A stretch of 64,000 bases of DNA from Asterochloris sp. CNOR1 (Eukaryota; Chlorophyta; Trebouxiophyceae; Trebouxiales; Trebouxiaceae), in assembly GCA_963969365.1 (NCBI GenBank), contig OZ017752.1:2418001-2482000 (forward strand), written 5' to 3'. Shown piece by piece: positions 746-64,000 of this stretch (its first letter is position 1; every line of letters begins with the position of its first letter). The notes beneath the pieces were generated by a model. It was not told the origin of the DNA. It ran no database searches and saw only the letters and a program-made list of their open reading frames with translations. The translations under genes were made by a program, and so were the position numbers.

Positions 746-3700
746 CAGAGGAAATCTTGCTCAAGCGAATAGCAACCTATGACGTCTCTGCCTGCGTGCA
801 GCCTGCAGGAGGAGGTGACCAGCCTGCGGGAGCAGCTGGCTGAGGAGAGGGACCATGTGCGCCAGCTCCAGGCCACCAGCGACAGCCTCTTCCAAGGGGC
901 TGAACGCATCAAGGAGGTCCATGTGCACACCAGCAGGGACCTGCGGGCTGCCCTGGATGAGGTACATGCCAATCATGCATGTGTGGAGGTCCACTCAGAC
1001 ATTGCAGGGGCCTGCACGTTGCCCTCTGATGAGGTCTGAGCCAGCAGGCACGCTTGCGTGTCCAAGGAGGGTGCAGCAGGTCTGCCAGTCAGCTGAAGCT
1101 ATGCAAGGCCTGTGAAGGCTTGGAGTGAATGCTAAGTGCAGCAGGATCTGACAGCGATGTTGCTGCATGCTGTCAATCCCCAGGCAGCTTCGAGCATGTC
1201 GTTCTGGCATGGTGTGCTGGCGGCCTAGCTCCTGATTCAAGCGCATACCCCTAGTCCAGGCTGAGCAGCTGCCAGTGCACCTGGGCACCTCTCACCACAT
1301 CATCAGCTTGAGTGCTGTGCAACCTCTGGTGTTGTGCAGCTGTGAGGCTTGCCGACCCGCTTTGCACCGTGGTTCCAGCCAGCCCCTGGTGCAGGCTGAG
1401 CAGCTGCGGGGGCACCTGGGCACCTCCAACCAGACCATCAGTGGCTTGAAGGGCCAGATTGATGATCTGCATGCCCAGCTGCGGAAACGGAAGGATGAGC
1501 TGGAGCAGCAGGCTCAGGAGCACTTGCACCAGATTGGGCAGCTGCAGAGGCAGCTGGACGCTGCATGGGAGGATTCGGCAGCCCCCTCCTTCATGGCAAC
1601 CACCCGCCTGGTGCGCTGGCTGCCCAGTGGCCGACGCTTCAGTGTGAGCATTACCCAAGCGCACAGCGATCCCCCACCTGATGTGTGGTTGCCCACTGGC
1701 TGCGTCATGACTGTGTGTGTCCACCACCCTGCCCACATGGCCGTTCAGGCCGCAGGGAGCACAACACACCGCACCTTCTCTGGCTAGGCAGTGTCGGGTG
1801 CCATTCCCCAGCTCTGATGTTGGCCTCTCAGTTCAGTGGCTGCGTCAATCAACTCTGTCATGCTGACAGTGCCGACTTCTGGGTTTTGGCTTGTCCTGGG
1901 CTGATGTGTCTGCCTCCCAATCAGTCTGGCCTCCACTTACTTCGAGCACCACTAGCACAGTGCGTGACAGCAACATCACCCTGTGCCTGCAGCATTACCT
2001 GGCTGCCCCAACAATGCGCAGCGCCTATCCCATGCCTGCTGAGACCATGCGCAGGGCCCTCCCCTGCCTGGCACGACCATGTGTGAAGCCTCCCCTCGCC
2101 CCATGCTGCCGTGTTTTCCCCACCATGGTTCCACCCCTCCCCTTGTTCACAAGAGCCAGTGCGTACAGCCACAGCTCATCTTGGTGCTTGTATCTTGGCC
2201 TGCAGAATTACCTGGCCACCATGTGCAATGCTCCCCCCCCCCCCGAACAAGCTACAGTTAGTTCGAGGCAGCACAATATAATATGGTTGCAGAGTCCGCC
2301 TGGCGGTCACCAGGCTTAGTGCCCCTCCCTGGCCTGCCCTAAGCATGCGCTTCGGCCACAGTACAGTGTGAGCAGCTCGTTCTTGCCTGCAGGACTGCAT
2401 GGCAACCACCCATTGGCATCACCATTGACATGCTGCCCTTGCCTTGGCCTGCAGAACCGCCTGGCTGCCACCATGCGCAACGCCTCCCCGCGGCGCACAA
2501 CCAGCAGCATTGCAGAGGAGGCAGCGCTGTCGGCCGAGCGTGCAGCAGCCACAGGAGTCCTGCCAGACGACGAGCGCGCCACGCAGGTGCACAGGCTGAT
2601 GCTGGAGGTGGAGTTCCTGCGCCATGCGCTGGAGCAGGCGCAGTCGGAATGTGGTGCGCTGGAGGTGAGCTTCTGGGGATGTGTGTGGTTTGCTGATAGT
2701 TCGGATTCTTCCCTTCAGTGCGCAACGGCTCCGGACTGCTTAGCGCAAGACTGGGTCTGGTGCTGACATAGCCTGTCCATGGCTGCAAGCGACCTGGTGT
2801 CGGGAGTTGAGATGGCAGGGCTGCGCCCCAGGACTGTCTGGTGGTGCATTACTGAAAGCTAACAGTGTGACATTACCACTAGCTAATTGCCTTGTGCTGC
2901 AGGCTAAGACGGCAGAGCTGGGCACCAGCACTGTTGGATGCTGCACTGCGTCAATTCAGTCTGATGGCACATGCTTCATATCATCTCTCGGCCTGTGCTG
3001 CGGGCTAAGATGGCAGAGCTGTGCCCTGCCTTCCTGCACAACAGCATTGCCTGACAGTCATTCGGCGTTGCAGCTACACTGCCTGTTGCTGTAGGCTGAC
3101 AAGAGAGAGCCGTGGACTGCCAGCTGTGGGCTGACAAAGACAGAGCTATGGACTGCCCAGCTGCAGGCCAGCATTGTAGATGGCAGAGCTGCGCGCCAGC
3201 AATGTCTGGTGTGCCACTGCCTGGAGAGAGCCCAATCTAACGACAATCATCGCACCACAGCATCAATGTGCTGCAGGCTGAGATGGCTGAGCTGCGCACT
3301 GCCCTGCTGGAGGCTGACGCCCGCCTGGCAGACATGACAGCGCAGATGCTCCCCCGCACAGTGTCGGGCATGCCCCGGCCATCCCAGCGCGGCCTGCAGA
3401 GTCAAGGTGTGTGCTGGCAGCCAGCTACCTGCCTTGTGTGCCAGCCTGCCTCAAGCATCCACAGGGTCGAGCAGCTGGGTGCACGATGGAAAGTGGACGA
3501 AGGACTCACAGGCTGTCCCTCCAGAACATGCCCGAGTGCCTCAGCTGGCCCAGCTTGTAAGGGCTTTAGCCTCCTCTCTGCTGCTCAACCTAATGACTGG
3601 GTGCTGTGCAGCCTCGCTTGGAGCAGCTGCCGCTATGAGACTACTGAAGGAACGCGCCGACAAGGCCAATGCTCGCACAACGGCCTCTGTGAGGGAGCTG

Positions 3701-4549: not shown

Positions 4550-5962
4550 CTCTTTGCCGCACTTGATGACTTCTGTTGGCAGCTCCTGGCCCTGCTGGCA
4601 CCACATACTTACAGGGGAAAACATCCTGCAGTTCCTGTCAAGTCTGAGTCGATGCCTGGGCTGCACTTGACACTTTGTACGTTATCTGCTGCAGCTTTGA
4701 CTCAGCGCCTGCAGCTCCTGGCAGCGCCAGATGGCCTCGATAAGTAGCACAGCAGGGGCTAAGACAGGCAACAATGTTGTTTCAACCCTAGAAACCTTGC
4801 GCGGCAGCTCAGCAACATGCCATGTTGTAGGCAGCATAGACGCCTGCGACCTGGCTCATCTATGCTTCAGTCTTGTGAAACAGTAATAGTGGGTCGGATA
4901 CGCCTGAGTTATTGTGAATGAACCTCCTTCACCAGCCAGCAAGTGTCAAGTCTGAAACAGCGTAGCTCAATCTCAGCTCCCAGGCCAGATGGTTGCCAAA
5001 CAATTCCAATTCTGCGGCCCTTGACAAATTGTCTTAGCCATAAATGAGACGAGTCTGAGAGGGTGGCAGCTGGTGATGGTGGAGCGCTGCGAAATGCCTG
5101 CACCACAGGCAGCTACTAAACCCATGTTATGGTGCATCCTTCAGCAACAGCAATGGCTGCCTGTGCCGCCCCCTGGCATCCAATGAGATCCAGCGTGCAG
5201 GCCTGCTTTTTGCATTTCCCCTGAGCCATGGCTGCAACCTTCTGACAAGCGTTTCAACCGGCTTGGATGTGGCTACTGCCACATCACTGCCAAGCGCACC
5301 ACTGAGCGCTCTATTTTGTGATGAGTGTAACGCAATCTACCTGCCAAGTTCAACCAACAATAGCTCGCTAGGCCTACAGGCGCATGCAGTGTGCAAAAGT
5401 CACAGAGCTGCCACTGCTTCTGGATCACGTTCTCTGCGATGGCCTCTGCACATCCGCTGCTGCTGGGGATTGCCACATGAGGTCACATGTCATTTCTATT
5501 TTTGCCCCACAATGATGCCCCAAGCACTGGTGGCGGGGGCGCACGTTCCCTCTTGCAGGGCAGCAGTGCACCATCACCTAAGGTGAGCTGCCTCATGTCC
5601 ACACAAGCAGCACCATCCACTTCTGTATTGAACCTCAGGACCTGGTCCAGGTTGAGGCCACAAGCATGGGCTGTCTTCAAACTGCCTGTCAGGCCAAGGC
5701 ACCAGCATACACAGAGGCAGACATGCTGCTCGCTAAGACTGGACAACAGGGAGCTGCTTGTAGGAGATGTCCTGAGCCTCACCTGCTTCTGCCTTTATAA
5801 ACAGGTAAGCACACTAGTGACCACTTCCAGCGGCAACCAGGAGCTCACTCGCCCCAATGCAGATCACAGCGCTCATTTTGATGCCTAGCTTTCCTGGGTG
5901 GCTGGCGCCACTCAACTTCAGCCTCCTCAGATTTGAGGAATTCCTTTCCTTCCTCCTGACAG
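4550..5962. other. Intergenic or unresolved 5' part of the next gene
   Basis: No exon chain could be closed here. Two stretches look weakly coding on the plus strand: 5487-5582 (STGGGGARSLLQGSSAPSPK before a GTGAGC donor) and about 5600-5790 (IHFCIEPQDLVQVEATSMG in one frame). They could be upstream exons of the gene that is clear from 5963, but I could not link them in phase. A CTGCAGCTCCTGGC motif occurs near both 4580 and 4707, another local duplication. Confidence 0.3.
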
Positions 5963-7308: not shown

Positions 7309-25045
<17,737 letters not shown>

Positions 25046-35828: not shown

Positions 35829-35833
35829 GGTTG

Positions 35834-38800
35834 TCAGGGGGAACGCATGCTTCTCAGATACTCGTGCCAGTGTCTATCTTGAGCGCTCTTGCGCACCCCC
35901 TCATCAGCAGATGCAGCTGGCGAGACATTCCTGACAATGCCGCCCGTGCCTGCACAGTAGCATGACGTCTCAGTTGATTTTCAGCGGCTTGAAGCCCATG
36001 ACAACATCGCTTTGAAAGTGAGTGCTCACCTCTAAATGCCAGCTCCTCATTGAGCATGAGCTGTTCCAGGCGAGCTGCACTGTACTGGGATGAGGGCGTG
36101 GCTGGTATGGAAGTGGCAGAGACAGCCTGCTGCATCTCCGCCTGTGGCGGCTGACCCTGTGGCGCCTCCACCTGCCCCACCTCTGCCTGAGCTGGAGGCC
36201 TGCAACACAAGAGCAAGAGCAAGCTAAGGCTGCAGCTGCCCCACACAGCAAGCACCATGGGGGGGGGGGCAGCTGCACAGCAGCTGTCCACATTGTGCTA
36301 CCAGATGTGGAGCACGAACCACCCACCCTGCATGACTTCTGCGCCAGGAGGCAGCGCCCACTGCCTTTTTGGCTGAGCCAAGCGCCCTGTTCAGGGCGCC
36401 CGCCATGCCCGACCCCCTGCTGCCCAGGGGCGAGGCCTTGCTGGCCCCCGCAATCTGGGCAGCAGCCTGCGCTACAGTGGCGGCATTGCTGACCTGCTGC
36501 ACGTCGCTGCTGCCGTCAGTCCTGGAATGCAAGTCAGCACTCTCAGCGTAGATGACTGTGTCTCTGTCTGCAAGCGCCCGGACGTGCTGGGGCCAATGCA
36601 AGTATTGTGCAAAGGGGCACCGTTGCAGTCACTGGAAGGCGTAGCCAGGCGTGTTATGTCCTGCATCTTGCCAAGCCACCCACCTTGAGCCAGGCAGCAC
36701 AGTGCTGACGCCCCTTGCTCCACCAAAGAATCCACTCCTGGATGACGGCTGCCTCAACCTGGAACCAGGGCCTGCCTGCGCCTGCACACGCCAAGGGCCT
36801 GCTGTTACAAAGTGTGAGCATTCTCCCTGGTTCACAGGCACTGACACTCTTGCCCAACTGCGCACCTCAACCCAACTGCTGAGAGACAGTCACCCGGCAT
36901 GCCCAGGGCCGCCTGCTGAGACTGGGGCTGTAGCAACGTTTGCGGCCTCACAGGGTGCATGCTAGGCAGGCCTTGCAGCAGCCTGTGTTACCTGAACAGG
37001 CCCCTGGGAGGTCGAGGCCGCTGCAGCGCATGGCAGGGCCTGCTGCTTGGGTGGCGGGGAGTGTTGCACCTTTGGCCTAGTGCTGGAGCCTGCCAGAGGC
37101 ACCGGGCTGCCAAAGGCAACCCCAGCAGCCAACGGCGAGAAGCTGGGATCCGATTGCAGCACCTGCCGCGGCGGGGCCCCATGCAAGGCGCTGCCTGCAA
37201 GCCTGGCCTTGGCGGGCGGCGTGTCCACCGAGCTGGCCACCTTGTGGCTGCTGAAGCAGGCGTCTGCGCGTGCAGGAGCCCCTGCTGCAGCTGCGCCCTG
37301 GCTGGGCGACATTGTCCCAAGGCCCCGAGCAATGCCGCTGCCTGCCCGACTGCGTGCAGTCCCCGCTTGCTGGCCCCTACTCTGAGCTGCACAGCCTGCA
37401 GCATGTAGGCACAGCTGGGACAGCAGCTGCTGGCGTCCTCAGTTGGCAGCCCCAGCTAGTGTGTCAGCCATACAGGAGCCAGAAAGGCATGCTGACAACC
37501 CAGTGCTTGCTGGCGGGCTTCCATCAGCTGCTGTGGACCAAACAAGCCCCATAGAAGGGTGGTCATGCTGGGCAGCAAGCGGCAGTGTGAACGTCAACAA
37601 CAGGCCATGCCTTGTGCCCATTTTCTCATAAAGAACCGCTTGCTCCCCAATGAAAGCACAGAGGACAGTCATGTGGGGCAAAACAGCGCCGCTCCCTGTC
37701 GACACTTGGCACCTCGTGCGCTGCGTGCAGCAGTCCTGTGTCATGAGCTCGGCAGGTTGGTTCGGACTCAGGGTGCATGGGGCTGTTTGGCACCTTGCAG
37801 ACCCCTGTCAAGGCCCTGCCCTCATGCAGTGCCCATGGCAGCCCCATTCAGAACATGCAGCAGGATGCTCACGAGAGACAACAATGAACCCAGCAGCGCA
37901 GCGCACCTTGCAGACCCCTCCTGACACCTGACACCTCGTGCGAGGCGTGCATGCGGGGCTGAGCCAGCCCTCCCGCCGGCGCCTGACTCCCTGCCGCGTG
38001 CCCGGCCAGCTGCCTGCCCCGTAGGCCAGGCTGGCTCTTGGAGGCCCCCGCCCGGCGGTGCCCCGTCACGCCTGCCCTCGGCCGGTGCACGGGGCTGACG
38101 CTGGGTAGACAGGTGGGTGCTGCCTCGCCTTGGCCTGCCCGCCGAGCAGGGTCTCCTCCAGCCTGCTGGCTCCCTGCCCCTGGCTGGTGCATATGGCTGG
38201 CAGTGGGCAGACAGGTGGACGCTGCCTCCCCAATGCCTGCCTGCACAGCAGGCTCGTTACCTGTGAGCGCATCAGCAGGATTGGCTGCTGCTGCGGCCGG
38301 CGCGCTGGGGTGGCTGTGATCGCCAGCAGATGCAGCCGGCAGCCGCCCTGCACTGGCCTCAGTCGCCACACCAGAGGCAACAATTTGGGGCTGCTCCATG
38401 ATGCGGTGAGAGCATGCACCGGCAGCTGCAGGGTGCACCTGCCCACGGCTGCATAAGGCCTCCAGCTGTCCACAGTGCTGATTCAGCCCAGCCTCACAGA
38501 CTTCTGATCTGTCAGGCGTCTCAGCAGCTCTCTGAGCCGCTGCCCCCACTGCAGGTGAGCAACTGCCAGCCCAGGCTGCTTGGGGCGCCTGGCTGCTCTC
38601 TGCTGGCTGCACAGATGTCCCAGCATGGGAAATTGAGCTGTTGGGCGTCTCAGCTGCAGCCTTCTGAGCCGGCACACCTCCCTGGTCCAACCCTGCACCC
38701 GCTGCAGCTGACCAGCCGCCTGCCTGAGCTGCCTGCTGATGCTGGCAGTCCTCCTGCTGCACAAATGCCTCTGTGGCAGCCGCAGCCTGCTGAGCCCTGC

Positions 38801-41655
38801 TGGCCGGCGAGCTCGGGGGCTGCTGACCCCTGCCTGCCTTCAAGCTGCGCGTTGGATGAGCTCTGCCAGCCGAGGAAGTTGACACCTGCTCAGCCAGGCC
38901 CTGCTTCAGCGGGGGGGTCTCTGATCCCTCCCAGCCCTCAGCAATAGAGGGCAGGGCCTGCAAGTCCACCTGCTGCTCCTTGAGCAGCTGCACAGGCAGA
39001 GAAGAGGCCTGTGTCAGGTGCCAGGGAGTCATGCCAGGCATACACTTAGCTTGAGGCATATGGCAGCACAATGCCAGCACATATAAGGGGGCATCTTATG
39101 AGCTGGCGCAGACGAGCTGACTACAGTGACTCACACCAGTCATGCAGCAAATGGCAAGCAAGGACCCTGCCCAGGCAAGGTGCTTCCCTCCTTGGGCTTG
39201 CGTCAAGAGTGCTGTCGCACCCTGTTGATGATTCAGCGCCGTTCTTCAGCGGACAATCGTCTCGCGTTGCAGGAGCAGGCTCTTGCAGTGGTGCGAACTG
39301 CTGCGTCAGGCTCTCCATTTGCCGCAGCACCTGGCCATGAACGCTTGCTCCCAACCCTTGTGCAGCAGCAACATCTACTGCCCGCAAGTCAACTTACCTG
39401 CAACACCTCCTCTGGGTCAAACCCATTTTCCCCGCTTGCGGCCCCCTCCAGCTGCAGGAAGAGGCGCATGCTCTCCCTGAGGCCCTCAGGCGCTTGTCCC
39501 TGCGGCTGGCCCCTCTGCTGCTGCGCCCGCAAGAAGTCCAGGCTGCGCTGCAAGGCAGCCCTGCTCAGCCGCTGCTGCTGCGCCCTGGTGCCGCTTGCCG
39601 ACCGCTGGGTGGCGGCAGACTGCCGGCCGGGGTCTGCAGGGGCGCCAGCCTGCTCTGCCCTGCCAATGGCAGCCAGCTCCCGCTTCACTGCAGCCTGGAT
39701 GACCTGTGAGGCAGGGTGCAGCAAAGTCAGGGGGCTGCATGCTGCTCTAGCAGGTGGCTGCCGGCTACATGGCCTGCAGGGCGACGTACAGCGCTGTCAG
39801 CAAGCATGTCATGCACCTTCATTGCAGCATAGATGACCTGCAGGGGGGAGAGGGCAGCGGAGTCAGGGGCATCAGCAACATGAAGCTCCGATGCAAGATG
39901 GCTGCCGTGTCTGACTGACCTGCAGGGCGGGAAGCAGCGGTGTCAGCAAACTTTGAACACCTTGGATGAACTACAGCAGAGGGAGAGCTGCAGTGAGGTG
40001 GGTGCGCATCAGGTGGATGAGAACTGCTGGCCAGCTCCAGCTGCAGTCCAGCCTCGGGGCGGGGTGCCCTGCTGTGCATGCATGGTGGCTGCAGCCTGCA
40101 AGACCTACTAGTGGTTGAGTATCAGAGTGAAAGCCTGCTTGGCACTCTGTGTCTTGGGTTGCGGATCAATCCCAGCCTTGACGAGCAATCAGCAGGGCGG
40201 TCTGCACAGCAGAGCTTGCTGCTGCTGCATCTGGGCTGTCGTGTGGACCTCACTCAAGAAGCACCCATCAGGGGCTCGCTGCCTGTAGCTGCCGCCCAGA
40301 CATGGCCCCTCAGCGCCGAGCTACCTCACCTGGAGGCTGTTAAAGGCATCCCCTGCCTTTGCAGGCTGGTCCGGCCATGTGGCGCCATTGGGCTCTCCAG
40401 CAGAAGCTGTGATGGCAGAGCTGCTGCCGAGAGCCGCTGCAGGCTGTTCTGCTTCCTCAGGCAGGCCATCCCATCGCGTTTTATCAGTCCCACGGGACAG
40501 CATGGCTGCTGGAGGCACGCCCTGCAGCTGTCTTCGCTCGGCTCCCAGGAACAGGCTGGCTGCCTGGCCTGCTGAGGGTGCCGTCGCAGCCTTGGTGCGG
40601 GTACTGCGAGCCATGTCCTCCAACGCCAGCCGGCTAGGGCTGACAGCTGCCTCGGCGTGCGGGCATCTGTCCTCAGCACAAGGGCCGGCTGCCTGTCGTG
40701 CACGTCCCATGGCTGGGGCTTGTGCCTCAGTGCCAGGGCTGCAGGCAAAGTCCTCCATCGCCAGCCGGCCAGGGCCGTTGCCCGCCTGGGCATGTAGGCC
40801 TCCCTCCTCAGCATACAGGAACAGACTGCTTGCCTGGCTAGCAGTCTCCGTGGCTGACACTGACACTGATGACTCAGCAGGGTGAGTGTGATCCAGGTCC
40901 TCCATTGCCAGCAGGCCGGGGCAGTTGGCTGCCCTGGCAAAACCGGCAAACAGTGCGGAACTCTCCCTGCGCGACAGGGTGGCACGGCTGCGCCCCTGTG
41001 CCTGGTAGGCTCCCAGGGGCAGCAGGTCATCGCCGTCGAGGCCCCTGCTGCTGGTGCTGCACACCCCAGATGACCGCACTGCAGCTGCTTGAGCTCCAGG
41101 CGGTACCTGCCGTAGCAGTGATGTACACATCAGCACCCATTGCAGCCTTTAGCTAGCATACAGCTTGTGTGCATGGCCACCCCAACCGGCGCAAAGCACA
41201 CAGCAGCTGGAGCAGCTGCACAGGCAAGACAGCAGCAAGCACTGTGCCTCAACAGCACTACGCTGCGGCCTGAGACACTGTTGACGAAGATGTGGTGAAG
41301 GCGCTGTGCAGTGGCAGAACATGCTAAGAGGAAGCCAACACATTGCGGAGGCGCTTGCCTGAGCGTCCCTGTCTGCATGTTGCAGCACCCGGATATCACT
41401 TGCATCAGCTCGCAGGCTGCCAAGCAGATTGTCCAGGGAGCTCAGTGGTGAGTGCTGGTCATGGCAGGCATGAGCTGATGTCAACTTGCTCCTTAGGTGG
41501 GTAGAGCAAGCCTGCAGAGGAGACAGCTCCAGGCTCGTGTCCAGAAGGCTGCCTTCGGCCCAATCTCCTTTCAAAGATAGCAGAGAGGTGGGGTCATTGT
41601 CGAGGCTGAGGCAGTCAGAGGTGGTCAGATGCCTGAAAGCCCTCTGTCTCGCCAT
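35834..41655 (-). CDS. Large Ala/Ser/Gln/Pro-rich protein with internal repeats
   Basis: Exons in phase: 41655-41359, 41106-40330, optional 21-nt exon 39837-39817, 39703-39398, 38987-37907, 37341-36992, 36586-36327, 36199-36030, 35949-35834 (TGA). The total is about 1,118 aa (1,125 with the microexon). It starts MARQRAFRHLTTSDCLSL. Exon 2 has three copies of a unit with LLAMEDLDHTH, RLAMEDFACSP and RLALEDMARST, spaced 49 and 45 aa and alternating with QASSLFLYAEE and QAASLFLGAER. Exon 39703 is a likely helix (KRELAAIGRAEQ, QQQRLSRAALQRSLDFLRAQ). Exon 38987 is disordered and contains a further 34-aa duplication. The C-terminus is more ordered (SAARLEQLMLNEELAFRG, SAQDRHWHEYLRSM). The first intron needs a GC donor (GCAAGC). 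The family is unknown; it looks like a scaffold or disordered regulatory protein. Confidence 0.6.
38040..38250 (-). repeat. 102-bp coding tandem duplication
   Basis: Minus-strand peptides EAASTCLPTASHMHQPGAG and EAAPTCLPSVSPVHRPRAG are encoded by two copies 102 bp (34 codons) apart; for example GACAGGTGG recurs at 38108 and 38210. The copies are in frame within the large exon, so the duplication is tolerated as protein. Confidence 0.75.
39690..39990 (-). repeat. Echoes of an acceptor/exon start, one perhaps a microexon
   Basis: The acceptor of exon 39703-39398 (minus CTCACAG|GTCATCCAGGCTGC) is echoed upstream in the gene at 39817-39839 (CTGCAG|GTCATCTATGCTGC), about 39925-39940 (CTGCAG|GTCAGTCAG) and about 39961-39972 (CTGTAG|TTCATCCAAG). 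The 39837-39817 copy has its own donor (AAG|GTGCAT) and is 21 nt, phase-neutral, encoding VIYAAMK next to VIQAAVK, so it may be a real duplicated microexon. Confidence 0.55.
40530..40930 (-). repeat. Three-copy coding repeat (L-A-[ML]-E-D units)
   Basis: TCCTCCA followed by CGCCAGC or TGCCAGC recurs at plus-strand 40616, 40751 and 40898, that is 135 and 147 bp apart (45 and 49 codons). It encodes RLALEDM, RLAMEDF and LLAMEDL on the minus strand. Spacer segments also match each other (SLFLYAEE, SLFLGAER). Confidence 0.8.
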
Positions 41656-41758
41656 GCCACCCCTGGGACAGAAGGTCCAGGGCACCTTGTGCTTGACCCA
41701 GAACAGAGAGGTCTGGTCAATCAGTGAACTTTTCTTCTTGGCTTAAGGATCAGGCAGT
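41656..41758. promoter_or_regulatory. Very short divergent promoter, Ala-rich gene / FBPase
   Basis: 103 bp separate the start codons at 41655 (minus) and 41759 (plus). Transcription start sites must therefore be close together or overlap unless the FBPase start is further downstream. Pyrimidine-rich TTTTCTTCTTGG lies at about 41730-41741 just before the FBPase ATG. Confidence 0.5.
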
Positions 41759-44700
41759 ATGGCTCCCAGCATGCAGCAAATGAGGTGCAACTGCCAGACC
41801 TCCGTCGTCAGGAATGTAGTGCCACATGCTGCTCGGCTGAGCCGCAGCAGCACCACACAGGTCGCCTGCTCGACCTGTTTTGCCTTTCCAGGTGCGGCTC
41901 GCTCGATGACATCTCTGGCTACCTCTGCAGGCGCTTCGACTGCAGCAGAGAGGAGAGAGGCAGTCCCATGGCCTGCAGAAAGTCTGCGCCCAGGTCAGCT
42001 ATGTGCTGAAGCATCAGTAGGTGCACCAGCCATCTGCTTGATCTGCATCTTGGCACCTGATGCGATACCCATGGTGTCACCTACATGACATGCAGGCTGC
42101 TGCCACCACCGAGAAGCCTCAGACCAAGCCAAGCCAGTATGAGCTGCAGACACTCACAACTTGGCTACTCAAGGTAAGGTTTCAAAGCCACAGCAAGCCT
42201 TTGGCTGGCCAAGCCAGCAGCAATAAGAATTTCTAAGGACTTCAGCCAAGCTCTGTTCCTTCACCTGCTTGCTGCACTTGCCCCTCTGCTGTCAGCTGCC
42301 CCTGGCTGCAGACCTGGAAATGGGATTCCGTGGCATGGCTGCTGTGTAGCTCATAGATCTGGTCAGAGCAGATGCACTCTACTCTGTGCGGGACTGGTAC
42401 TCCACAGTCCTTTGCAGCAAGATGGTGAACCTGTTGCGCTGCGCTGCAGCTGCTCGCCTTGCAGCCCTGCAGGAGGCCAGCCTTCCTGTCCAGATCCCTC
42501 CTGCAAGCAGGGCTGCTGTGTCTCAAGGTGCCTGCTGCACCGTTCATTTTGCTGCTGTGCAGGAGGAGCAAAAAGGTCGCGTCTCCAATGAGCTGGCCAC
42601 CGTGCTGTCCCAGATCTCTGTGGCCTGCAAGCAGATTGCCTCTCTTGTGTGCCGCGCCGGCATTGCCGACATGACTGGCGTAGCTGGCCTTCAGAACATC
42701 TCTGGGGAGGACCAGAAGAAGCTGGACGTGATCTCCAACGAGGTCTTCAGCAACTGCCTGCGCTCCTCAGGCCGCACGGTGAGGCCCCGCGGCAGCTCCA
42801 GCAGCGTGCATCCTGTGATAGGTCAGGCCTCACTGCACTGTGCCTGTGGGGCGACCTACCTGTTCTTTGGGTGATCTCTCATGTCACGACAAGTGTGGGC
42901 CCTGCAAGAGCCTACTGAACTTCATGGTGGGTGCTCAGTGCCTGCTGGCAGCCCCTGCTGCATTAGGTCTGCAGGTGCCAGCAAAAGTGTGCTGCTGACT
43001 TGTTTCTACAGTGGCCCTCAAAACAGCTTTTCAGCCTGCTTTTAAACCATAGAATTGCCTTCCCAGGCTGTGAGGACAGGCAGTAGACTTGCAGACTTTG
43101 CAAAACCAGCTCAGTCCCCCTAGCTGCAAACTTGAGTGTTCTGCTGATCAGCGCAAGTCCCCCTTGGTCACGGCAAGTGACCAACCAGCTCCTGGCTGCA
43201 GGGCATCATTGCCTCTGAGGAAGAGGATGAGCCTGTGGCTGTGGAAGAGACCTTTTCTGGTGACTACATCGTCGTGTTTGACCCCTTGGACGGCTCCTCC
43301 AACCTGGATGCCAATATCAGTACAGGCAGCATCTTTGGCATCTATGAGCCCAGCGAGGAGTGCAGGGTGGACGAGGATCCCGCCAAGATGGTCGAGAGCT
43401 GCATCGTTAACGTGTGCCAACCAGGTGCGCTGGGCTAAGGGTGCTGCAGCCAGACAGGATGCAAGTGCGTCTGGTACAGCCTGCGGCAGTCTCCTGGCGC
43501 AAGCCTGCAGCTCATACACCTCCATACTGAGTAGTCAGGAGAGCTGCCTGTGCAGAGAGACACAAGCAGCTGGGGCCTGCCACCGCTGCCGGGACCCTTC
43601 GATAGTGACGCGAAACTGAGCTGCCTTGGGGACTCTGCAGCTTGTGCCCATGTTTGTGTGTCTGTGTTGGCAACCAGAGGAGGCGCCTTTGTGACAAGGG
43701 AGTCGCAGCTGGGGCCCAGTGATGCCGTCAAGACCTTTCAAGGGGTTTTGGTTGGCCGTTGCTTATTCAGGGGAGCTTCCCCTGCAGCAAGATACATGCA
43801 GCTGGGGCCTCCCACTGCTGCTGAGACCCTCAAAGATGGTTGAGACTGGATTGTCAATGCCTGCTACCGCGATGGGCTCCATCGCCAGCAACTGCCAGCC
43901 CTCAGCCTGCATCACGGGCCTGTGCCATTCAGAAGCTTTGCACTCTACCCCGCTGTAGGGCGTTTGCTGTCCAAGTTGTTGGGTGACTTGCTGACGTGCG
44001 AGGTCTGATTTATCACTGAGCTGCCTCACTGGCTGCCAATGTAGGCTCCGCTCTGCAGGCTGCTGGGTACTGCCTATACAGCAGCTCCACAGTGTTCGTG
44101 CTGACCCTTGGGCACGGCGTGTACGGCTTCACACTGGACCCCTCTGTGGGCGAGTTCATCTTGTCCAATGAGGCCATCCAGTGCCCACAGGAGGGCAAGA
44201 TCTATGCCTTCAATGAGGGCAACTACCAGGTGGGGTCCGGGGGCACAGCCTTGTTGCTTGACTTGAAGCTGTGCTGTCAAGGTGCCTACGCTGCAGGCTG
44301 GCTTGCATGCCGCCTGCAGTGCTGAGCTGGCTGACAGGGAGGGGAGGGAAACGACAGGAAACACAACTATTGTTGTGCATCTGAGCTGCCTGCAGTACAG
44401 ACTGCCTGGCTTCGCCTTTGCCTTTGTTCAGGCAGTGTCTGCATGCCAGGTCCCCTCACAAAGGCAGGCTGTGTGCATCTGCGTCATGTTGCAGAGCCAG
44501 CTGCACATCAGGCTGCCCAGCTGGTGTGGAAGCTCGTGCTAAGCATTGTTCTCAAGTGCCCACTCCATGCTGGTGCTGAGCAGCACCTGCCATGTGCAGG
44601 GCTGGACCCAGGGGCTGAAGACCTATATTGACAGCCTCAAGGATGCCAGCAAGTGGGGTGGCACGCCTTACTCAGCCAGGTGAGGTGCAGGTGGTAGGTA

Positions 44701-45677
44701 ACACTTTACAGCCACTGGCACGGCCTGCAGGGACTTGCCCATCTTTCCCTTCTGAAGGCATCCCTTCAGGGCTAGGCCCCAAATTCGGGCAAAGCAATCC
44801 TTCGGAGCAGATGTCGCACACAGGCATCTCAGGGTCAAATGGGCGTGAAGCGCACTGCTCAGCCTGTTCAAGCCGGCTAATATATTGCTGCTGGCAAGGG
44901 CGGCAAGATGTTTGTGGCACCCCCTGGCACCCTCCATCCACAAGCAGGTTCCTTCCAAGTCTGACGACCACACTCTGGCAAGGCTGTCCCCCAGCATGCA
45001 CACCCTTTTCGACCCCGCATGCAAGTTGTGCCAGCTCTGCCTTCAACTGCACACCCTTGTGCTGCGCAGGTACATTGGCTCCCTGGTTGGTGACTTCCAC
45101 CGTACCCTGCTGTATGGAGGGATCTACGGGTACCCAGGCGACAAGAAGAACAAGACCGGGAAGCTCAGGCTGCTGTACGAGTGTGCCCCCATGAGCTTCA
45201 TCATGGAGCAGGTGAGGTGGCTGGGAGGGGGCCTGCCTGACCTGACTGCTGTGAGGACGAGCAAGCACTGCATCAGTGTGCTGCTCAAATTCCTTTTGCC
45301 AGGCAATGCAAAGCCGGTGTCTTCTTCATGAAGCAGAGCGAACTGTCATTTGCCAAAGCCCGGCCACAAACACATGAGCTTGTGGATTGGCAAGGGGCAA
45401 GTGAGCTGAATGAGTAGCCAGAGACACCATCAGCTAACCCATCAAGTGAATGAGGCACTGCACCTGCGAGTCTGGCCAGAGGCAGCAAAGCAGTGCAGGC
45501 AGGGGGCGCACTGATGATGCCGGCGAGCCATGCAATTCATGCTTGCAGGCCGGCGGCTCAGGCTCCACAGGAGATGGCCGTGTGCTGGACGTCTGCCCTG
45601 AGAAGGTCCACCAGCGGGTGCCACTCTTTGTGGGCAGCAAAAAGGAAGTTGAGTACCTTGAGAAGTGCTTCGAGTAA
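41759..45677 (+). CDS. FBP1: Chloroplast fructose-1,6-bisphosphatase
   Basis: Calvin-cycle enzyme hydrolysing fructose-1,6-bisphosphate in the stroma. Exons in phase: 41759-41860, 41931-41993 (uncertain), 42096-42173, 42563-42778, 43202-43424, 44045-44229, 44600-44679, 45070-45211, 45549-45677 (TAA). The total is about 405 aa (384 without exon 2). The N-terminus [19 protein letters not shown] is Ser/Arg-rich like a transit peptide. Conserved blocks: [26 protein letters not shown], metal-binding [14 protein letters not shown] and [40 protein letters not shown] and [17 protein letters not shown]. The redox loop keeps three cysteines (EEC, ESC, NVCQPG), the set known to be thioredoxin-regulated in plastid FBPases, so light regulation is likely (inference from family knowledge). 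TGTAA at 45915 may end the transcript. PsbQ follows on the same strand 287 bp later. Confidence 0.96.
43555..43845 (+). repeat. Three-unit degenerate intron repeat
   Basis: In the FBPase intron 43425-44044 the core GCAGCTGGGGCC recurs at 43566, 43705 and 43798. It is embedded in longer similarity: preceded by ACA or AGT, followed by a run ending in GACCCTTC, GACCTTTC or GACCCTCA. Each unit ends in an AG-containing segment. I could not match it to an exon edge, so this may be an old echo or a simple tandem duplication. Confidence 0.6.
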
Positions 45678-45964
45678 GCACAACCCTGCAAGCCTGCCAG
45701 ATTGCCACTTCGTCCACTTCAACACACAGCTTCAGCCCCACCAGTGAAGTGAAAGCCACTGTCTGCACCCTTTCGAGACCACTGAACATTGAGACCCCTG
45801 AACATTCAGTTCCCAGTCACCAGTGACCCACCCACTTTGTCAATCACTCTGTTTTGCCTCTCATGTGGGGCAGAATATAAACCAGATTTACAAGATAAGG
45901 CCCTTTTCTCCCTTGTAACACAGCCGTCCTGCACCGTTGCACCGGCAGCTTCCTTCACAACAGC

Positions 45965-48900
45965 ATGCAGACCGCCCTGATGCAGAGCATGGCGTCCCAG
46001 AAGTAGGTCGTGAGATGGGCAGCACGGCTGCTCTGTGCTGTGAGGTCTCGTGCAGGCGCCTCTGTTGCTCAAAGTGGCGCCTCATGCTGCAGGACCAGCG
46101 TGGTTGGCAACGCTGTGCGTCCAGCTGCAGGTAAGGGGTGGATCTCAGGCTGTCCTGGATCTGCCAGATCATGCTCAATTGCTGCTGGGCCAATCAAGCA
46201 GGTGCCCATGCCAATCTGGCACTGCTGCCCTGCAGGACTGGCAGCTACCCCTCGCAGGTGGGTTTTGCGGAGAGCCGCAGGCATCAACTGGAATACTGCT
46301 GCATGTAGCTTCCTTCAGCTCACCCCGGCCCAATCGAGGCTTAGCTGTGCTGTGCTGGAACCAGGCTGACAGTCAAGTTTTGCCTGGGCATCATGCACAT
46401 GCTGGGCTGCAGACCTCTGACCTGCCAACTTTTGCCCTGTAGTCGGACGATGGTGGTGGCACGTGCATCCGTAGAGGACAGGCGGTCACAGGTGTGAAGC
46501 GCCCTGATGACACACTGCTGCACACTGCTGGGCTGGTTTACAGGGTGCTGCGGTAGGAGCAGCTGGGGAGCGCTCAGCTGTCCATTGTCTTTAAAAGTTT
46601 GCGCCGGCAGCATTAGCTGGAGAGCGCACTGCTGTCTGACTGTCCCTGGAGGGGGTTGCGATAGCACCAGCTAGATGACATGGCAATGAAAGTCGCACCT
46701 GACAGCTGCTGGTGGCTGCTGTGCAGGTGCTGGGTGGTGTGCTGGCCGGGCTAGTGGGCCTCAGCACAGCCATGAGCGCGCATGCCATGGATCTGAGGGA
46801 CGACAGGTGCGCAGCAAGGGAAGACAGGCCGCTGGCGTGCTGTGAGGCTGAAGGCTGGTGTCTGCATGCCTGGGGCAGATGAGAGGCCACCCTGTTGGTC
46901 GGCTCGTGCTGCGTTGTCTAGGCATAGGGAATAGCGGCATTGCTGCCGGCTCAAGGCGGTCAGCGGCTCAGAGATTTCTGCTCAACGCCTTCTGTGGCTG
47001 GGAAATGTTGCTGCTGAGTGGTACACCGTCTAAAGTGTACACGTTGGATGGGCTGCTTGTCACTTGTCTTGCATTGAGCTCTCATTCTAGGAGCTGGAGG
47101 CAGTCAAACAGCCCCAAGCCTCTGCATAGCACTCGGGCTTGCCCTGCGTGAGGGCCTGCCTGGGGTCCCTTGTTTGTGTGAGCAATACAGCTTACAACGC
47201 GCCCATGCCTGGCCTGTACGGCAGAGGCATCTGATGCAACCTGTCCAGGCGGCCCTCAGCTGAGCAAGCTTGCTGTCCATGCACAAGCCAGAGGGGGCTT
47301 TGATCATCATGTGGGGCACACTGGCGGTCCCTCCTGTAAATTTCAGCTCTTGTGCCCTTACACAGTCTGCCTTGGGCTGCCAGAGGGGAATTTAAGATCA
47401 CCTTGGTGTGCGCGCACAACACTCTGGCTGCTTTCTATTCCAATTTAATGTGTGCCTCACCTTACGTAGGGAGGTGCGCCAGAGGGGTTTTGACATCATT
47501 TACGAGGCGCGTGACCTGGACCTGGACCAGTCCGAGCGCGATGGTTTGACACAGTACCGCACCAACATTGACTCCACCAAGAAGCGCATCAAGGAGAGTG
47601 AGAAGCGCATCGACAACGTCCTGCCCGGCAAGATCCAGAAGAAGTATTGGTGAGCTGCTGCTCCCGCGTGTAAGGGGGAAGCCCCCCAGACCGTGGAGGC
47701 AGGGGTGGTGGTGCCAATGCATGTGATGCTGATGGAGCCAGGGCGGCAGGGTGGCTTGACAGGTGTGGCTGCTCATTTTCTCACCAGGGTGGCTGCTAGT
47801 GTGATGAGAGTCAGGAGAGGCACTGATTGGCTGGCTACGCGCTTTAGTGCAGTGCAGGGTTGGGGCCAGGATTCCACTGGCTGCAGGTGCTGCAGCATGC
47901 CAGCTAAGGCTCTGCAGGGACGGCCTGGTAGAGCAGGGTGCAGCGTCCACTGTGTCAGATGGTGTGGGTATCTCCACCAGCATGCTTGAGGAGCACATGA
48001 CTACAGGAGGGTCTTGTGCAGATGCTCTATGCTGCAGGACTGATGCCTGCAAGGGTGCCCAGGTGGCAGTGCCACAAGGCTGGTTGGCTGGAACTGCGGT
48101 GTCCTGTGCTGTGCAACAGTTTCTTGCTCAGCTGCCCTGAGCTGGAACGGTGGCTGCCTGCAAGTGCTTGCAGCGTTGTGTGACAGGTCTCTGCTGGCCT
48201 GAATGCAAAGCGGTTGCTCCCCAAGGGCAGCTGCCTGAACATTAGTGATGTGCTGCAGGGGCCTGCTGATTACTGCACAGTCTTGTACTAGCTGGCTCAC
48301 TTCTACTGTGACTGTGCTGCCCTCTGTGCTGCAGGCCAGGTGCCTCCTGCCCTGACAACATTCAAACCCCACCACAGACGGCTGGCTAAGCATGTGAATT
48401 GTCACCTGCACGACAGATGCCTGCTGGCCAGACCCAGTATGTTGTTGTCATCATCAGGCTCACCGTTTCTGCATGTGTGCTGCCCTCTGTGCTGCAGGAC
48501 AGAAGCCCGCGAGGAGCTGCGCAACCAGGTCGGCAACCTGCGATTTGACCTGAACACCGTCATTGAGACCAGCAGCAAGAGCAAGGCCGACAAGAAGGAC
48601 GCCCAGTTCAAGAAGAAGGAGTTCCTGGCCAAGGTGGGCTGGGATGCCACAACTCTTTCGTCAAGAAACAGTCATGGTGCATGGAGACCAGCTTTTGAGA
48701 CAGTGCGAGGTGCTGCGATGTTGCTGTGGCATTTGAGTCGCCTGAGCCAGCTGGGGGCAGGTACTAGCCCAGATGGCAACCTGCTATTTGTCCATGCTGA
48801 CACATGCCCTTTGCACTGCGGTGTGTCAGCCAGGCCAGCACTTGTGAGCAAAGGGAGCCTGCTGCTGGCAGCTTCAAACTGCATGTACCGGTGTGTGTAA

Positions 48901-49204
48901 ACGGAGTGCCTGCCAATACTGGGTGCAGCATTGTCTGCTGCCGGCCATGCTGAAGGGTGGCCTTCCATGCCACCATCCACTTCACATGCTTCTGACTCTG
49001 CACTTAGGCCAAGCCTGGGATATTGGGTTAGAGCCTGAATGTTTTTGTGATGAGCAATGGGCATGCTGATCGCTTCCTTGTCCCATTCAGGTGGATGACC
49101 TTGACTACGCAATTCGCAAGAAGGACCCCAGCAAGGCTGACGAGGCCCTGAAGGACGCACTTGCAGCCCTGGACACCGTGCTGCAGTCTCTGTCTCTGGC
49201 ATAA
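45965..49204 (+). CDS. PsbQ: Photosystem II oxygen-evolving enhancer protein 3
   Basis: Extrinsic subunit on the lumenal side of photosystem II that stabilises the Mn cluster. Exons in phase: 45965-46002, 46056-46130, 46443-46491, 46727-46806, 47470-47649, 48498-48633, 49091-49204 (TAA), giving 223 aa. The bipartite targeting peptide is visible: stromal part [12 protein letters not shown]...VVARASVE, then a twin-arginine signal [20 protein letters not shown] ending SAHA before MDLRDD (likely lumenal cleavage). The mature region is PsbQ-like and helical: [38 protein letters not shown] and [20 protein letters not shown]. The RR motif suggests Tat transport, as reported for other PsbQ proteins. 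The first three exons are the least certain. TGTAA at 49422-49426 is a likely polyadenylation signal. Confidence 0.92.
48313..48498 (+). repeat. Exact 23-bp duplicate of a splice acceptor
   Basis: The acceptor of the exon at 48498 (TGTGCTGCCCTCTGTGCTGC followed by AGG, 48476-48498) occurs identically at 48313-48335, 163 bp upstream in the same intron. The following bases are CCAGG upstream and ACAGAAG at the true exon. Only the downstream copy leads into conserved PsbQ sequence. Confidence 0.9.
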
Positions 49205-57928: not shown

Positions 57929-58162
57929 GAAAGTGGCACAGCTTTCTGTAGAATGCCAATGAGAGGGCAGGCTGCAGAGTCTGCATCACCAAGGTACCCC
58001 CTAATGCATGAATGGTTTGACACAGCGATTGGTCAAGTGTTGACGGGCAACACAGCCTCTCAATTGCATTGAACTGTGATGCTGACTGACTCACATCACT
58101 TTGCACCCTTTCATTATCGTCTTTCATTTTGACTGCTGTAAGCTATGCAGGCAGGCACTGCA

Positions 58163-59729: not shown

Positions 59730-62700
59730 ATGCCGTCTGCTGGCACACAAGCCAGTCGTGTGAAGTGGCGTCTAGATGACACCTCAGACGATAAATTGCC
59801 TCCTGCTGCAGGCTACAACCAGGGACTGACTGTGTCAGCGGAGAAGCCTCACAAGGCGGCCCTCAACAGAAGCACCAGCCTGCCTGTTCAATTTGGGGAG
59901 GAGGCTGGCCCAGCCCTGCATGGGCGGTCTGCAGCTGGCAATAAGCAGCTGCAGCGTCCGCGCAGCAGTGGAGGCCTGGGGCTCCATGCTCGCACCAGCT
60001 CGTGAGTTAAGGCTGAAGAATTCTGAGACCCAGTCGCAGCCAACATTTGGGCTTGTGGGTCTTGTGGGCAGGCAACTAAGGCAGCTTGGTCGCAGCTAAC
60101 TGCCTCACTGCTCACATCCAAGGTAATGGCGTCCAATGCAGCCCTGCTTGTTGTGTAGCCTGCCACAGAGCTATCCTGCAGCAACCTGCTGCAGGGAGCC
60201 GCCTTCTGGTAGCCCACCTTCGCTTTCAACTGTCATCGAGGGGTTCTATGCTTGCACACAGGGACTTATGTGGCTGGCGGCTGCTCCAAGTGGCCTGCAT
60301 TTTGCTGAGAGAGACTGTTGCTGTGCCTGCCTGTAGCCCTGGGCCAGCACAAGCCCATGAGGAGACACTGCTACATCTTTCTTCGCGTCGGTTGCAGCCC
60401 TAGCGCTGCACTCCCCCTCAGCGTGCACGTCTCTTCCACCTCAGCTTCCTGTGACTGTGACCTGCCTGCAGCCCTGGAGCTGTCAGGTCTGCAGCAGCTG
60501 ACATCCGGCTGTACGTGTCAAGCAGCTGAGGGCCTCAGTCAGCACAGGGAGCTACTGAGCACAAACCTACCTCAGCACGTACTCTGCTCAGCACATGTGT
60601 GCCCTGCCTGCAGCCCTGGAGCCGCCCCATCAGCAGCCGCGGACATCGGCCTGCACGTATCAGCAGCCGTGGTCACGCAGCGCCACCGCCCCCAATCGGC
60701 CCGAGCACGCCTGCAGACGGGCGTCCTGCAGCCACAGGCAGAGCCCAACAGCCAGCAGCGCTTGGCGCCTGCAGCTGGCACCAGCACTTCAGCACCGGCT
60801 GCAGGCGGCAGCGCAACCGCTGCCGCGGACAGCGCTGCAGGTGTGACCTCTGCCTGTGCTGTGCGCAGTAATAAGGCCCTCATGGAGGTGGCCACTCAAC
60901 CCCCAGCCAGGATCAGGGTGACCAGCTGCAGACGGGCAGAGCTTCAGCACCTGCATCAGCAGCAAAATCAAAGCTCAAAGCTGAGCAGTTCGTGCCGGCG
61001 TGTCAGTCCATGATACGCATTGATTGCGAAAAGATAGAGCTGGAGGTTGAGGCCTTCATTAAGTGCTCAATATGTTGAGGCACTGCTTCTCATGCATGCT
61101 TCTGTTATCTCAACCAGCTCTGCTGATCCCCTGAAAATGGTGTTGGCCACGCCTTGCGCAGGCAGCAGTTTGTCAGGCAGCCAGGCTGGCAGCCCCCCTG
61201 CAGCTGCTGGTGGCAAGGCCTCTGCAGCCAAGGCTGGCTCTAAGGCGCGGGACTCAGTGCCCTCCTACATGATGGGGACCGGGCACTTGAGGGGGGATGC
61301 CACCTCACGAGTGAAGCTCCACTTCAGGGGAGGCAGCCCAGGCAGCAGCGAACAGAGCAGCCCTCTGCCTGGGGCCCCTCGCAGGCTGGTGCACAGTTCC
61401 TCAGGTGCGAAGTGCACAGTGTCCTGCATGAAAGCAGGACGGGCTCTGACTGAAAGCTTTGGGGATGGGGGCAGCTGATCTGGGGTGACGCAGGCAGGCA
61501 CTGCAGCATCTTGCTGATCTGGGGCCAAGTGATTGGCAAGCAGAGCAGCTTGCTGCCTGTGTCGGCCCTCAGGTGGTGTATAGAGGCACAGGTAAGCCCT
61601 GCGTATCTCTCTGCAAGGGCCTTGCAGGGCTATAGCATTTGCTGCCGGCTCCTCCCACCCTTTGGCCTAGCTGGTGCAGATGTGCAGCAAACGACCTGGC
61701 TTCCCACATGCTTGATCTACAGATCACGGGAGTGCAGACGCCTGGAAATCATGTTTGGGGCAGCTACAATGTGCATTGTTTTAGACTTGGCGGCAAGGCA
61801 CCGCACTACAGCCCTGGGCTGCCGGACTCCACTTAGCAGCCTGACCCAAGGTCTGGCTCTGCAGTGGGCGAGGTGGCTGCAGTGGGGCGTGCCCAGCAGG
61901 CAGCGGCTGCCTCAGGACAGTCGCAGGCTGGCAGTGAGACTGGCAAGCTGGGTAGGCGGGCTGCAGAGCAGACAGCGCCCGGCGCCAAGGAGGGGCTCAT
62001 CCCGGCCAAGCGCGTGCTGGAGGGTGCAGGTAGGCCAGTGTGGGTGCTGGTGATCATCCATAGCTGCAGCTGCTGCCCTGTGCAGGGTGGGTGCTTCTGT
62101 GGCACAGCCAGTCCCCATGCACAGCATGGAAGTTCCCAACTAACAGGGTCATGGTTCCACACTTCATCCTCAAAAAGTTCTTATGCACAGCAAATGCCAC
62201 GCACAGCATCGTGCACTCTGGCCGCCTCTTGTAAAGTCCCTCACAGCCTGGGCACAGTGGGTGATGCCATGTATGGCTACTACAGTTGGTATCAGTCTCA
62301 CACCTGCCATGACCCGCCTGCCCGCAGGCAGCGCTGCTGCCCAGCGGCCAGGGACCCCTGTGCTGGGCGGCAAGCAGAGGGAGTCCAGGAGCCGGCCAGC
62401 GGTGCAGGCAGCGCCTGCGCCTCCCTCTGTGGTGGCGGCCGCCCGCAGCCTGGCTGCAGCTGAGCACCAGTCTGCCCAGAGCACTCCACAGCCATCTCCT
62501 GCCAGCCTTAACCGCTCCCTTCTGCAGCTGGAAGGCAGCACCCAGCCTGCAGCTGCCTCGCCCTCTGAGTTGCAGAGCAGGCTGTTGGCAGCTCCTGCTC
62601 CGCCAGATGGTAATGAGACTGGCAAGCTGGCTCAGGGCATGAAGCTGACTGGCTCCCGACAGAGACTGAAGCAGTCACCAGCCCACACCATTGTGGCCCT

Positions 62701-62959
62701 GCAGCACAGCACTGACACAGCAGACAGCAGTGAGACAGTCCCAAAGCTGCAGCTCCAGGCTGTGACGCCCACTGCACAGGTGCAGTCAGACGGCGGGGCA
62801 GTGACGCTGGTGCCAGAGGGCAATGCCTGGGCTGAGCTGCAGTGGGAGTGCAGCAACCTGGCCACCATGTTTGGCATCACCAGCTCGTGGCTGGAGGAGC
62901 AGCTCCGCGATGAGCGCCTGGTGCACCACATGTACAGTGACACCTGCAAGACCTCCTGA
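59730..62959 (+). CDS. Ala/Ser/Pro/Gln-rich hypothetical protein
   Basis: Exons in phase: 59730-60001, 60614-60840, 61162-61404, 61865-62029, 62328-62959 (TGA), giving 512 aa. The start MPSAGTQASRVKWRLDDTSD is the first ATG of the open exon and divergent to the EF-hand gene. Most of the protein is low complexity and basic, e.g. KASAAKAGSKARDSVPSYMM, QPSPASLNRSLLQLEGS and LTGSRQRLKQSPAHTIV. Only the C-terminus looks folded: NAWAELQWECSNLATMFGIT then SWLEEQLRDERLVHHMYSD. I do not recognise it. GSETGKLGRRA and GNETGKLAQGM are related internal segments. Intron 1 carries echoes of the start of exon 2. Confidence 0.6.
60327..60680 (+). repeat. Four copies of an acceptor and exon start
   Basis: The acceptor and start of exon 60614 (CCCTGCCTGCAGCCCTGGAG, then CCGCC... 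and GGCCTGCACGTATCAGCAGC) are preceded by copies at 60464 (CCTGCCTGCAGCCCTGGAGC, then GGCTGTACGTGTCAAGCAGC), 60390 (GTTGCAGCCCTAGCGCTGCA, then GCGTGCACGTCTCTTCC) and 60327 (TGCCTGCCTGTAGCCCTGGG). The last interval is 138 bp. Confidence 0.75.
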
Positions 62960-63255
62960 CCTGCCGCTCTGCCTCCCCTTGTGATGTACCTCTGCCTGCT
63001 TTCCACTCGCCCATTTCGTTGCTATTATGCTCCTCCAGACCACTCTCACTTTAGATGACTTTGTATTTACCAGCACCAAACCCTTTCAGTGATCTGTAAG
63101 CTGCTTCCACAGCCAGTTGTTGGAGTGTTTTGAGATGTGACCAAGCCATGTGGCACAGCTTCACGCGCTGCCTGATCTGGGAGGGTGGAACCAGCATCAA
63201 TCTGGGTTAGAGGCCTGTCATGGGGAAGTTTGGTCAGATCTCCACAGCTGTGGTT
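62960..63255. other. Convergent intergenic region
   Basis: 3' flank of the plus-strand hypothetical gene and of the possible minus-strand gene at the right edge. Nothing else recognised. Confidence 0.4.
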
Positions 63256-64000
63256 CTAAGCTGCCCTCCTCATGAAGTAACCATCAGATTGGAGGAAGTG
63301 AAGCAAACTTGAGACCAGCCGCCCACTGAGGAGGTGCCAAACTCCACTGGTGCTGCCAAGTTCATGCATGAGGTACCTGCTGCCAAAATTGTACAAGAGG
63401 CTCACCCATGCCGCTACACTAGGCAAGGCCAAGCATCTGCGGCAGAGCAGTAGAACCCCAGGCAAGCACGGCCGCCTGATGCAGCAGTCATTGAGGATCT
63501 TTCCTGCCGCAGCACAGCTGCAAAACACCTGCTGCACAACACCTGCTGCACAATACCTGCTGTGTTCGCAGGCAGCACAGAGGAGCAGCCTGACCCCAAC
63601 ATCAGCAGACTGGCTCCGCACCTGCAACAGGAATGGGACCACGCGGCCAACGCCCCTCCTGGGCAGCATCATCATCGCACCCCAGAGCAGCAGGAAGGCC
63701 TGGTGGATTAGCGGCATGTGCAAGACCGGGCGGCAAACGCAAGTGGCAAGCGCAAATTGTAGCTTGCACAAAGGGCGCTGGATGCCCCTAAATGCTGGCA
63801 GAGCAGCCTGCCCCTGCAACGACCTGGCCCACAATCACCCAGAGGTGGAAGCCTCAGAGGGATGGGACCAGGAGGCCAACAAGGAAAGGACACCAGAGAT
63901 CATGCCTGCCGCCATATGGCGGCAGGCAGCGGCATCAAGGCAGCCTGGAGGTGCGGCCTCTGTGGGCACAGCTGGTGCGCCCATGTTTGCAAAAGAACAA
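63256..64000 (-). CDS. Possible 3' part of a gene running off the right edge
   Basis: A minus-strand frame ends at 63256 and contains more protein-like stretches than its surroundings: LMHELGSTSGVWHLLSGRLV then SSLLHFLQSDGYF at the C-terminus, and PLIHQAFLLLWGAMMMLPRR further up. Plausible internal donor (CTGTTGCAG|GTGCGG at about 63620) and acceptors exist, so it may be two or three exons rather than one frame. The composition suggests a membrane or helical protein. No family recognised; it could be spurious. Confidence 0.25.
63521..63562 (-). repeat. Three tandem near-copies of a 14-bp acceptor-like unit
   Basis: On the plus strand CACCTGCTGCACAA occurs twice, flanked by AAACACCTGC and ATACCTGCTG. 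On the minus strand this gives three successive TTGTGCAG or TTTTGCAG acceptor-like sites 14 bp apart (GCAGCAGGTGTTGTGCAGCA pattern). It is a miniature version of the acceptor duplication seen elsewhere. Confidence 0.7.

Follow-up and report, generated by a model that had tools for sequence, protein, structure and literature searches.

Decayed copies of exon edges in introns of the green alga Asterochloris and their probable origin in past tandem duplications

Tandem duplication across a splice junction is already known from single cases (PMC4974935), as is short tandem duplication as a class of mutation (PMC8355091). In the RdRp gene of potato, according to Ma et al. (2016, PMC4974935), the duplication spans an acceptor junction and carries with it the branch site, polypyrimidine tract and AG, and the same gene also has an 83-bp duplication wholly within an intron. 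The same paper outlines the tandem-genomic-duplication model of Rogers, in which an exonic AGGT segment is duplicated and the length of the new intron roughly equals the period (PMC4974935). The account of Bap170 in D. pseudoobscura describes a novel intron resembling a tandem duplication, one case of intron gain among several without an identified source (PMC2809761); imperfect direct repeats adjoin that intron, as they do the introns described here, but serial junction copies do not feature in that account. Small tandem duplications are ascribed to fill-in and end-joining at staggered breaks, with hints from humans and plants, by Schimmel et al. (2021, PMC8355091).

Here we analyse a window of 64,000 nucleotides of Asterochloris sp. 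CNOR1 (bases 2,418,001-2,482,000 of contig 7; 56.4-Mb genome, 21 contigs), in which a preliminary description had noted diverged copies of exon edges within the neighbouring introns (henceforth referred to as echoes), together with further sequence of the same genome. Genes were modelled with a self-trained, splice-aware gene finder (264 kb of training sequence); the stricter version was used, and a looser first version over-split exons into tiny pieces. The gene finder recovers CAG/GTGAG-like donors and CTGCAG/G-like acceptors, and Pol I RPA1, FBPase and PsbQ served to check its models. Of the 1,438 residues submitted for the RPA1 model, at least 11-117 and 330-1420 aligned with S. pombe Pol I rpa1 and 118-329 did not; the C-terminal part of the model aligned over residues 63-248 of 252. 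PsbQ aligned with photosystem II structures, and FBPase with the pea enzyme; the best match of FBPase in a protein search was a protein model of Asterochloris (93%, with 89% of the query covered). Two errors of the gene finder are known: FBPase exon 43202 was ended about 20 codons early and PsbQ exon 47468-47650 was missed. FBPase and PsbQ lie head to tail at 41654-49204, and one public Asterochloris protein model fuses them, matching the FBPase and PsbQ exons of the window nearly letter for letter; the fused model looks like an annotation artefact. The window also holds a gene with a Cas1p-type 10-TM acyltransferase domain (PF07779; 27686-32344), a BAR-domain gene (PF03114; 55239-57928) and a gene for a small EF-hand protein (PF00036; 58163-59322). 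No relatives of the coiled-coil protein discussed below were found at E<=0.001 among 7,998 scored candidates.

Copies of exon edges in adjacent introns

To count echoes, we retained 151 introns out of approximately 399 predicted, with both flanking exons scoring above 8 for coding and a median length of 363 bp, and aligned the 60 exon bases at each edge to the adjacent intron, counting scores of at least 102 as matches. Such probes consist of exon bases only and are thus free of intronic splice consensus. Across the 264 kb, 35 of 296 edges (11.8%, or about one sampled edge in eight) matched their own intron, 19/148 on the donor side and 16/148 on the acceptor side. These matches came from 19 of the 37 genes; outside the contig-7 stretch, testable introns were available at 11 loci, 7 of which contributed matches. 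The same probes rarely matched elsewhere: 22/17,760 comparisons with other genes (0.1%), 1/2,248 with other introns of the same gene (0.04%, 14 strict hold-out introns included) and 1/296 when reverse-complemented (0.3%). The junction copies that the preliminary description had reported from the window are real and extend beyond it. It had also held that equal matching of exon interiors would count against the idea; exon bases 61-120, used as a probe, matched their own intron in only 2/251 cases (0.8%), and this low figure, with the single match in other introns of the gene (among them the one on the exon's far side), means that copying of whole exons was not seen. Probes from intron interiors matched elsewhere in the same intron in 82/1,787 cases (4.6%), which gives the enrichment of junctions over interiors that the preliminary description had named as its check (2.58-fold; gene bootstrap 1.58-5.00).

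A further 50 kb served as a hold-out, for which the gene model was not retrained. The strict cut-off (coding score >8) left only 14 introns, with 1/28 edges and 3/109 interior probes matching, and the cut-off was therefore relaxed: at a score above 0, edges matched in 4/96 cases, compared to 5/3,840 controls and 1/65 for exon bases 61-120, and at a cut-off of 3 edges matched in 3/68. The hold-out gave a lower rate than the training sequence, partly because the gene models are weaker there and perhaps in part truly so. The preliminary description had further reported that offsets cluster, and here we differ from it: the offsets of the nearest copies (n=35) span 70-328 with no clear clustering by eye, although 124 and 135 each occur twice (medians 161.5 for acceptors and 115 for donors).

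The coiled-coil gene (forward strand) carries the echoes originally ascribed to it. The edge of a real exon of the gene model at 1395-1449 is matched by an acceptor echo at 1260-1311 (offset 135, 82% identical, score 177). Upstream of the exon at 2455-2664, likewise real in the gene model, lie four acceptor echoes between 1998 and 2333 (1998-2030, 2034-2079, 2215-2258 and 2296-2333; scores 94, 112, 100 and 91), and the exon of the gene model at 3277-3406 has the longest array, five serial acceptor echoes between 2806 and 3229 (2806-2844, 2903-2943, 3004-3061, 3130-3168 and 3178-3229; scores 89, 116, 122, 97 and 96). Within this last array the gene finder made a weak exon call at 3167-3208 (score -2).

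RPA1 (reverse strand) has echoes scoring at least 102 in 6 of its 21 high-confidence introns. Its real exon at 8678-8798, which is part of the gene model and of the alignment with S. pombe rpa1, has its donor end at 8678 and three donor echoes between 8268 and 8581 (8268-8314, 8405-8458 and 8517-8581). The exon at 14891-15128 is echoed on both sides, by a donor copy at 14773-14828 (offset 118) and an acceptor copy at 15259-15319 (score 110), as is the exon at 18276-18500, which has two donor echoes between 18026 and 18208 (18026-18084 and 18163-18208) and an acceptor echo at 18669-18720 (score 134). The exon starting at 16541 has a donor echo at 16471-16529 (offset 70, score 112). Two donor echoes of the exon at 23348-23537, between 23055 and 23284 (23055-23105 and 23226-23284; scores 127 and 157), lie in an intron that is outside the 151 because the neighbouring exon is weak.

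Elsewhere on the forward strand, donor echoes follow the exons ending at 33263 (33326-33378, score 109), 61404 (61536-61591, score 115) and 34464 (two between 34513 and 34594, at 34513-34546 and 34552-34594; scores 95 and 104), the intron of the last being outside the 151 because the next exon is weak. Two donor echoes fell just short of the threshold, that of the reverse-strand exon 37928-38987 at 37707-37743 (score 101) and that of the forward-strand FBPase exon ending at 43424 at 43827-43868, which was left uncounted because it scored 99. Three further genes named by the preliminary description fared less uniformly. In the 59.7-kb gene (forward strand), the acceptor of exon 60614 is echoed at 60472-60531 (offset 142, score 157), but the upstream exon is a weak call and the intron is outside the 151. 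In PsbQ (forward strand), the exon-only probe fails (59), and what is copied at 48290-48344 (offset 163) is mainly the intronic side of the acceptor with approximately 10 exon bases (junction-spanning probe 158). In the Ala-rich gene (reverse strand), the exon-only probe scores 90, below threshold, whereas a junction-spanning probe (153) picks up a 134-bp tandem duplication that crosses acceptor 39703 at 39683-39949 (133 matched columns, 21 exon bases included); this is one clean case of tandem duplication. The same gene has exon-internal tandem repeats at 40589-40939 and 38071-38255, with periods of 135 and 102, both divisible by 3.

Origin of the copies

Several observations support the proposal of the preliminary description that the junction itself was tandemly duplicated and that the exon-side copy stayed in use. 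Local repeats no more than 3 kb apart in the 314 kb read were almost exclusively direct (24 direct, several of them from one array, and 0 inverted at a score of at least 60; 46 and 1, respectively, at a score of at least 50). The intronic half inside the predicted unit resembled its counterpart (mean 62.6 vs 46.7, p=1.6e-4; 32 of 35 cases testable), and beyond the predicted unit no significant similarity was detected (53.9 vs 49.4, p=0.19). An earlier version of this test, with a looser measure of exonic reach that gave some values larger than the offset, covered 27/35 cases and yielded p=0.002 within the unit and p=0.28 beyond it; taken singly, only 16/47 echoes extended into the intron above control at p<=0.05. 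Introns with echoes were also longer than those without (median 524 bp, n=33, vs 348.5 bp, n=118; +175.5 bp, p=1.6e-5). In the cases listed, intron starts did not resemble the start of the downstream exon, the offset being well below intron length (for example 135 in 361, 118 in 342). The strongest local repeat is an array at approximately 8300-9090 of another locus, L026, spaced at about 132-138 bp and 80-86% identical.

The copies are old. Echo identity ranges from 0.63 to 0.87 (n=47) with worn breakpoints, first-echo identities are centred on 73%, and the noncoding pairs among the 60 best local pairs do not exceed about 92% identity, save for one 27-base match at 96%. Echo offsets are spread over the three remainders modulo 3 (17/17/13, n=47). 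In every exon-exon repeat among the local pairs listed (9 rows, 7 places) the period is a multiple of 3, the pattern expected under selection on the protein.

Taken together, the sequence comparisons make it likely that echoes are decayed tandem duplications, mostly of about 70-200 bp, which arose locally at random, for the most part during a phase that came to a close about 0.2 neutral substitutions per site before the present. Ordinary local tandem duplication would have struck at many random places, concentrated in the past; fill-in and end-joining at staggered breaks, by extension from other organisms, may have been its mutational source. Where a duplication crossed an acceptor or a donor, two junctions would result, of which only the one adjoining the rest of the exon preserves the protein, and use of this exon-side junction would lengthen the intron by one unit and leave the protein unchanged. 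A duplication would thus be tolerated as long as splicing still worked at the copy attached to the exon, the other copy merely joining the intron. Such a choice of the exon-side site is what exon definition, as described in PMC3488318, would give if it applies in this alga. The exon copy being constrained, it would mainly be the intronic copy that decays, and the pair would stay recognisable for longer; junction copies are accordingly expected to outlast interior copies since one member of the pair is exon sequence and slow to change.

Excess at junctions and alternative explanations

The enrichment at junctions was compared with simulations of random duplication. Under steady-state duplication the ratio of edge to interior frequency was 0.49-0.96 (0.58 in one run), below the bootstrap interval (1.58-5.00), and one edge echo in ten should be at least 97% identical, compared to a highest observed value of 87% (n=47); this scenario was rejected. 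A pulse of duplication that has ended, simulated with one-sided decay (slow change on the exon side) and a 110-bp unit, gave an edge frequency of 0.118, an interior frequency of 0.045 and a ratio of 2.60, compared to observed values of 0.118, 0.046 and 2.58. Rate and age were fitted to these two frequencies; the spread of identity was not fitted, and its 10, 50 and 90% points (0.68/0.74/0.81) are close to those observed (0.68/0.73/0.82). The end of the fitted pulse lies about 0.22 neutral substitutions per site back, and the fitted simulations contain about one duplication per 200-260 bp. With an 85-bp unit and no added rule, the frequencies were fitted about as well and exonic reach better: the 110-bp simulation overshot the observed reach (KS p=0.028 and 0.0045), and no significant difference from the 85-bp simulation was seen (0.18 and 0.096). 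Some misfits persist. Exon bases 61-120 matched in 2/251 cases, compared to a simulated 4.5-4.6% (110-bp unit) or 1.9% (85-bp unit); junctions with several copies (3/16 and 5/19) exceed the simulated 5-15%; and simulated introns are shorter than real ones (median 315 vs 363).

The intronic share of the unit (unit minus exonic part) is larger at acceptors, with a median of 106 bp, than at donors, where it is 55 bp (p=0.016; n=16 and 19), and total offsets differ likewise (p=0.024); the samples are small, and the offsets may be inflated by middle copies that escaped detection. Such a difference would be expected if a copied acceptor had to bring its branch point and pyrimidine tract along. A simulation with a branch-point and pyrimidine-tract rule, however, fitted no better: with this rule, or with exon reach limited to 80, the simulated ratio fell to 0.97-1.89, of which the value of 1.89 lies inside the bootstrap interval, so that such a rule is neither shown nor excluded.

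The alternative that survives best is that duplication is itself raised at junctions over intron interiors by R-loops, stalled transcription or splicing-linked breaks. The junction rate of 2.6 times the interior rate, the ratio below 1 predicted by steady random duplication and the exonic reach below that of the 110-bp simulation all speak for it. We nevertheless consider it unlikely, since old random duplications with one-sided decay give the same ratio and the same spread of identity with no preference for junctions, and since interior duplications are plentiful (82/1,787 probes). The preliminary description is thus borne out as to tandem duplication across junctions, by the direct orientation of the pairs, the similarity within units and the longer introns, but its junction echoing as a special mode of intron growth is unneeded: a pulse that has ended, followed by one-sided decay, reproduces both 11.8% and 4.6% and makes a junction-seeking mechanism unnecessary.

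Less probable still is that echoes are retained as alternative or decoy splice sites or as unproductive exons. An AG or GT lies within 4 nt of the expected place in 14/21 acceptor and 20/25 donor echoes, 16/46 echo sites outscore the lowest quarter of real sites and 10/46 score at least as high as their own real site. By a rough estimate, however, an AG or GT within nine positions is often expected by chance, and the strict dinucleotide is kept in 11/21 acceptor echoes (12.0 expected from divergence) and 16/25 donor echoes (12.8 expected), or 27/46 combined compared to 24.8, one of the 47 echoes being left out as its match does not reach the edge. Retention of splice dinucleotides in the 46 echoes is therefore not above neutral and, since offsets ignore the reading frame as well, no function is indicated; the suggestion that echoes supply alternative splice sites gains no support from conservation. 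Some echoes whose sequence scores like real sites may occasionally be spliced. Finally, chance similarity through shared splice consensus and biased composition can be set aside with near certainty. The window is indeed rich in CTGCAG-like words and control scores of edge probes reach 115-117, but the probes are exon bases only and the other-gene, same-gene, inverted and exon-interior control rates lie far under 11.8%.

Comparison with described systems

Under the reading that echoes are decayed random duplications, introns have a measurable route for growth with proteins unchanged, and enrichment of duplications at exon edges can, as a warning, arise purely through preservation of the exon copy. 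Fossil copies could also date duplication activity and reveal which layouts of splice signals are tolerated. More tentatively, and with the odds somewhat against it, a genome-wide pulse of short tandem duplication may have swept an Asterochloris ancestor and then stopped, having added a large share of present intron length. Were this so, the surviving echoes, with more intronic sequence kept at acceptors than at donors, would record which splice signals need copying for the exon-side site to win, and exon definition would have been put to a natural experiment in a unicellular alga.

None of the titles listed by our literature searches, made in a collection with few subscription papers, was a survey of such copies at intron junctions. 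Within these searches, the count of fossil junction copies in one genome, the serial arrays and the account of their enrichment by one-sided decay appear to be new. Schimmel et al. (2021, PMC8355091) likewise treat short tandem copies in direct orientation, as a kind of mutation; the insertions of which they speak are below 100 bp and overlap only the lower part of the offsets found here. As in tandem exon duplication (PMC9013439), the adjacent intron repeats exon sequence, but here mostly edges and not whole exons are copied. The Rogers model, as presented in PMC4974935, likewise has tandem duplication feeding intron sequence; here, by contrast, offsets are smaller than intron length and echoes are found at copies of the same kind of junction. 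The potato RdRp gene resembles the echoes in that a tandem duplication crosses an acceptor junction (PMC4974935). There, however, a new intron was gained and both junction copies are spliced, whereas in Asterochloris the gene model uses one junction and the intron grows, and the copies are old and many per genome.
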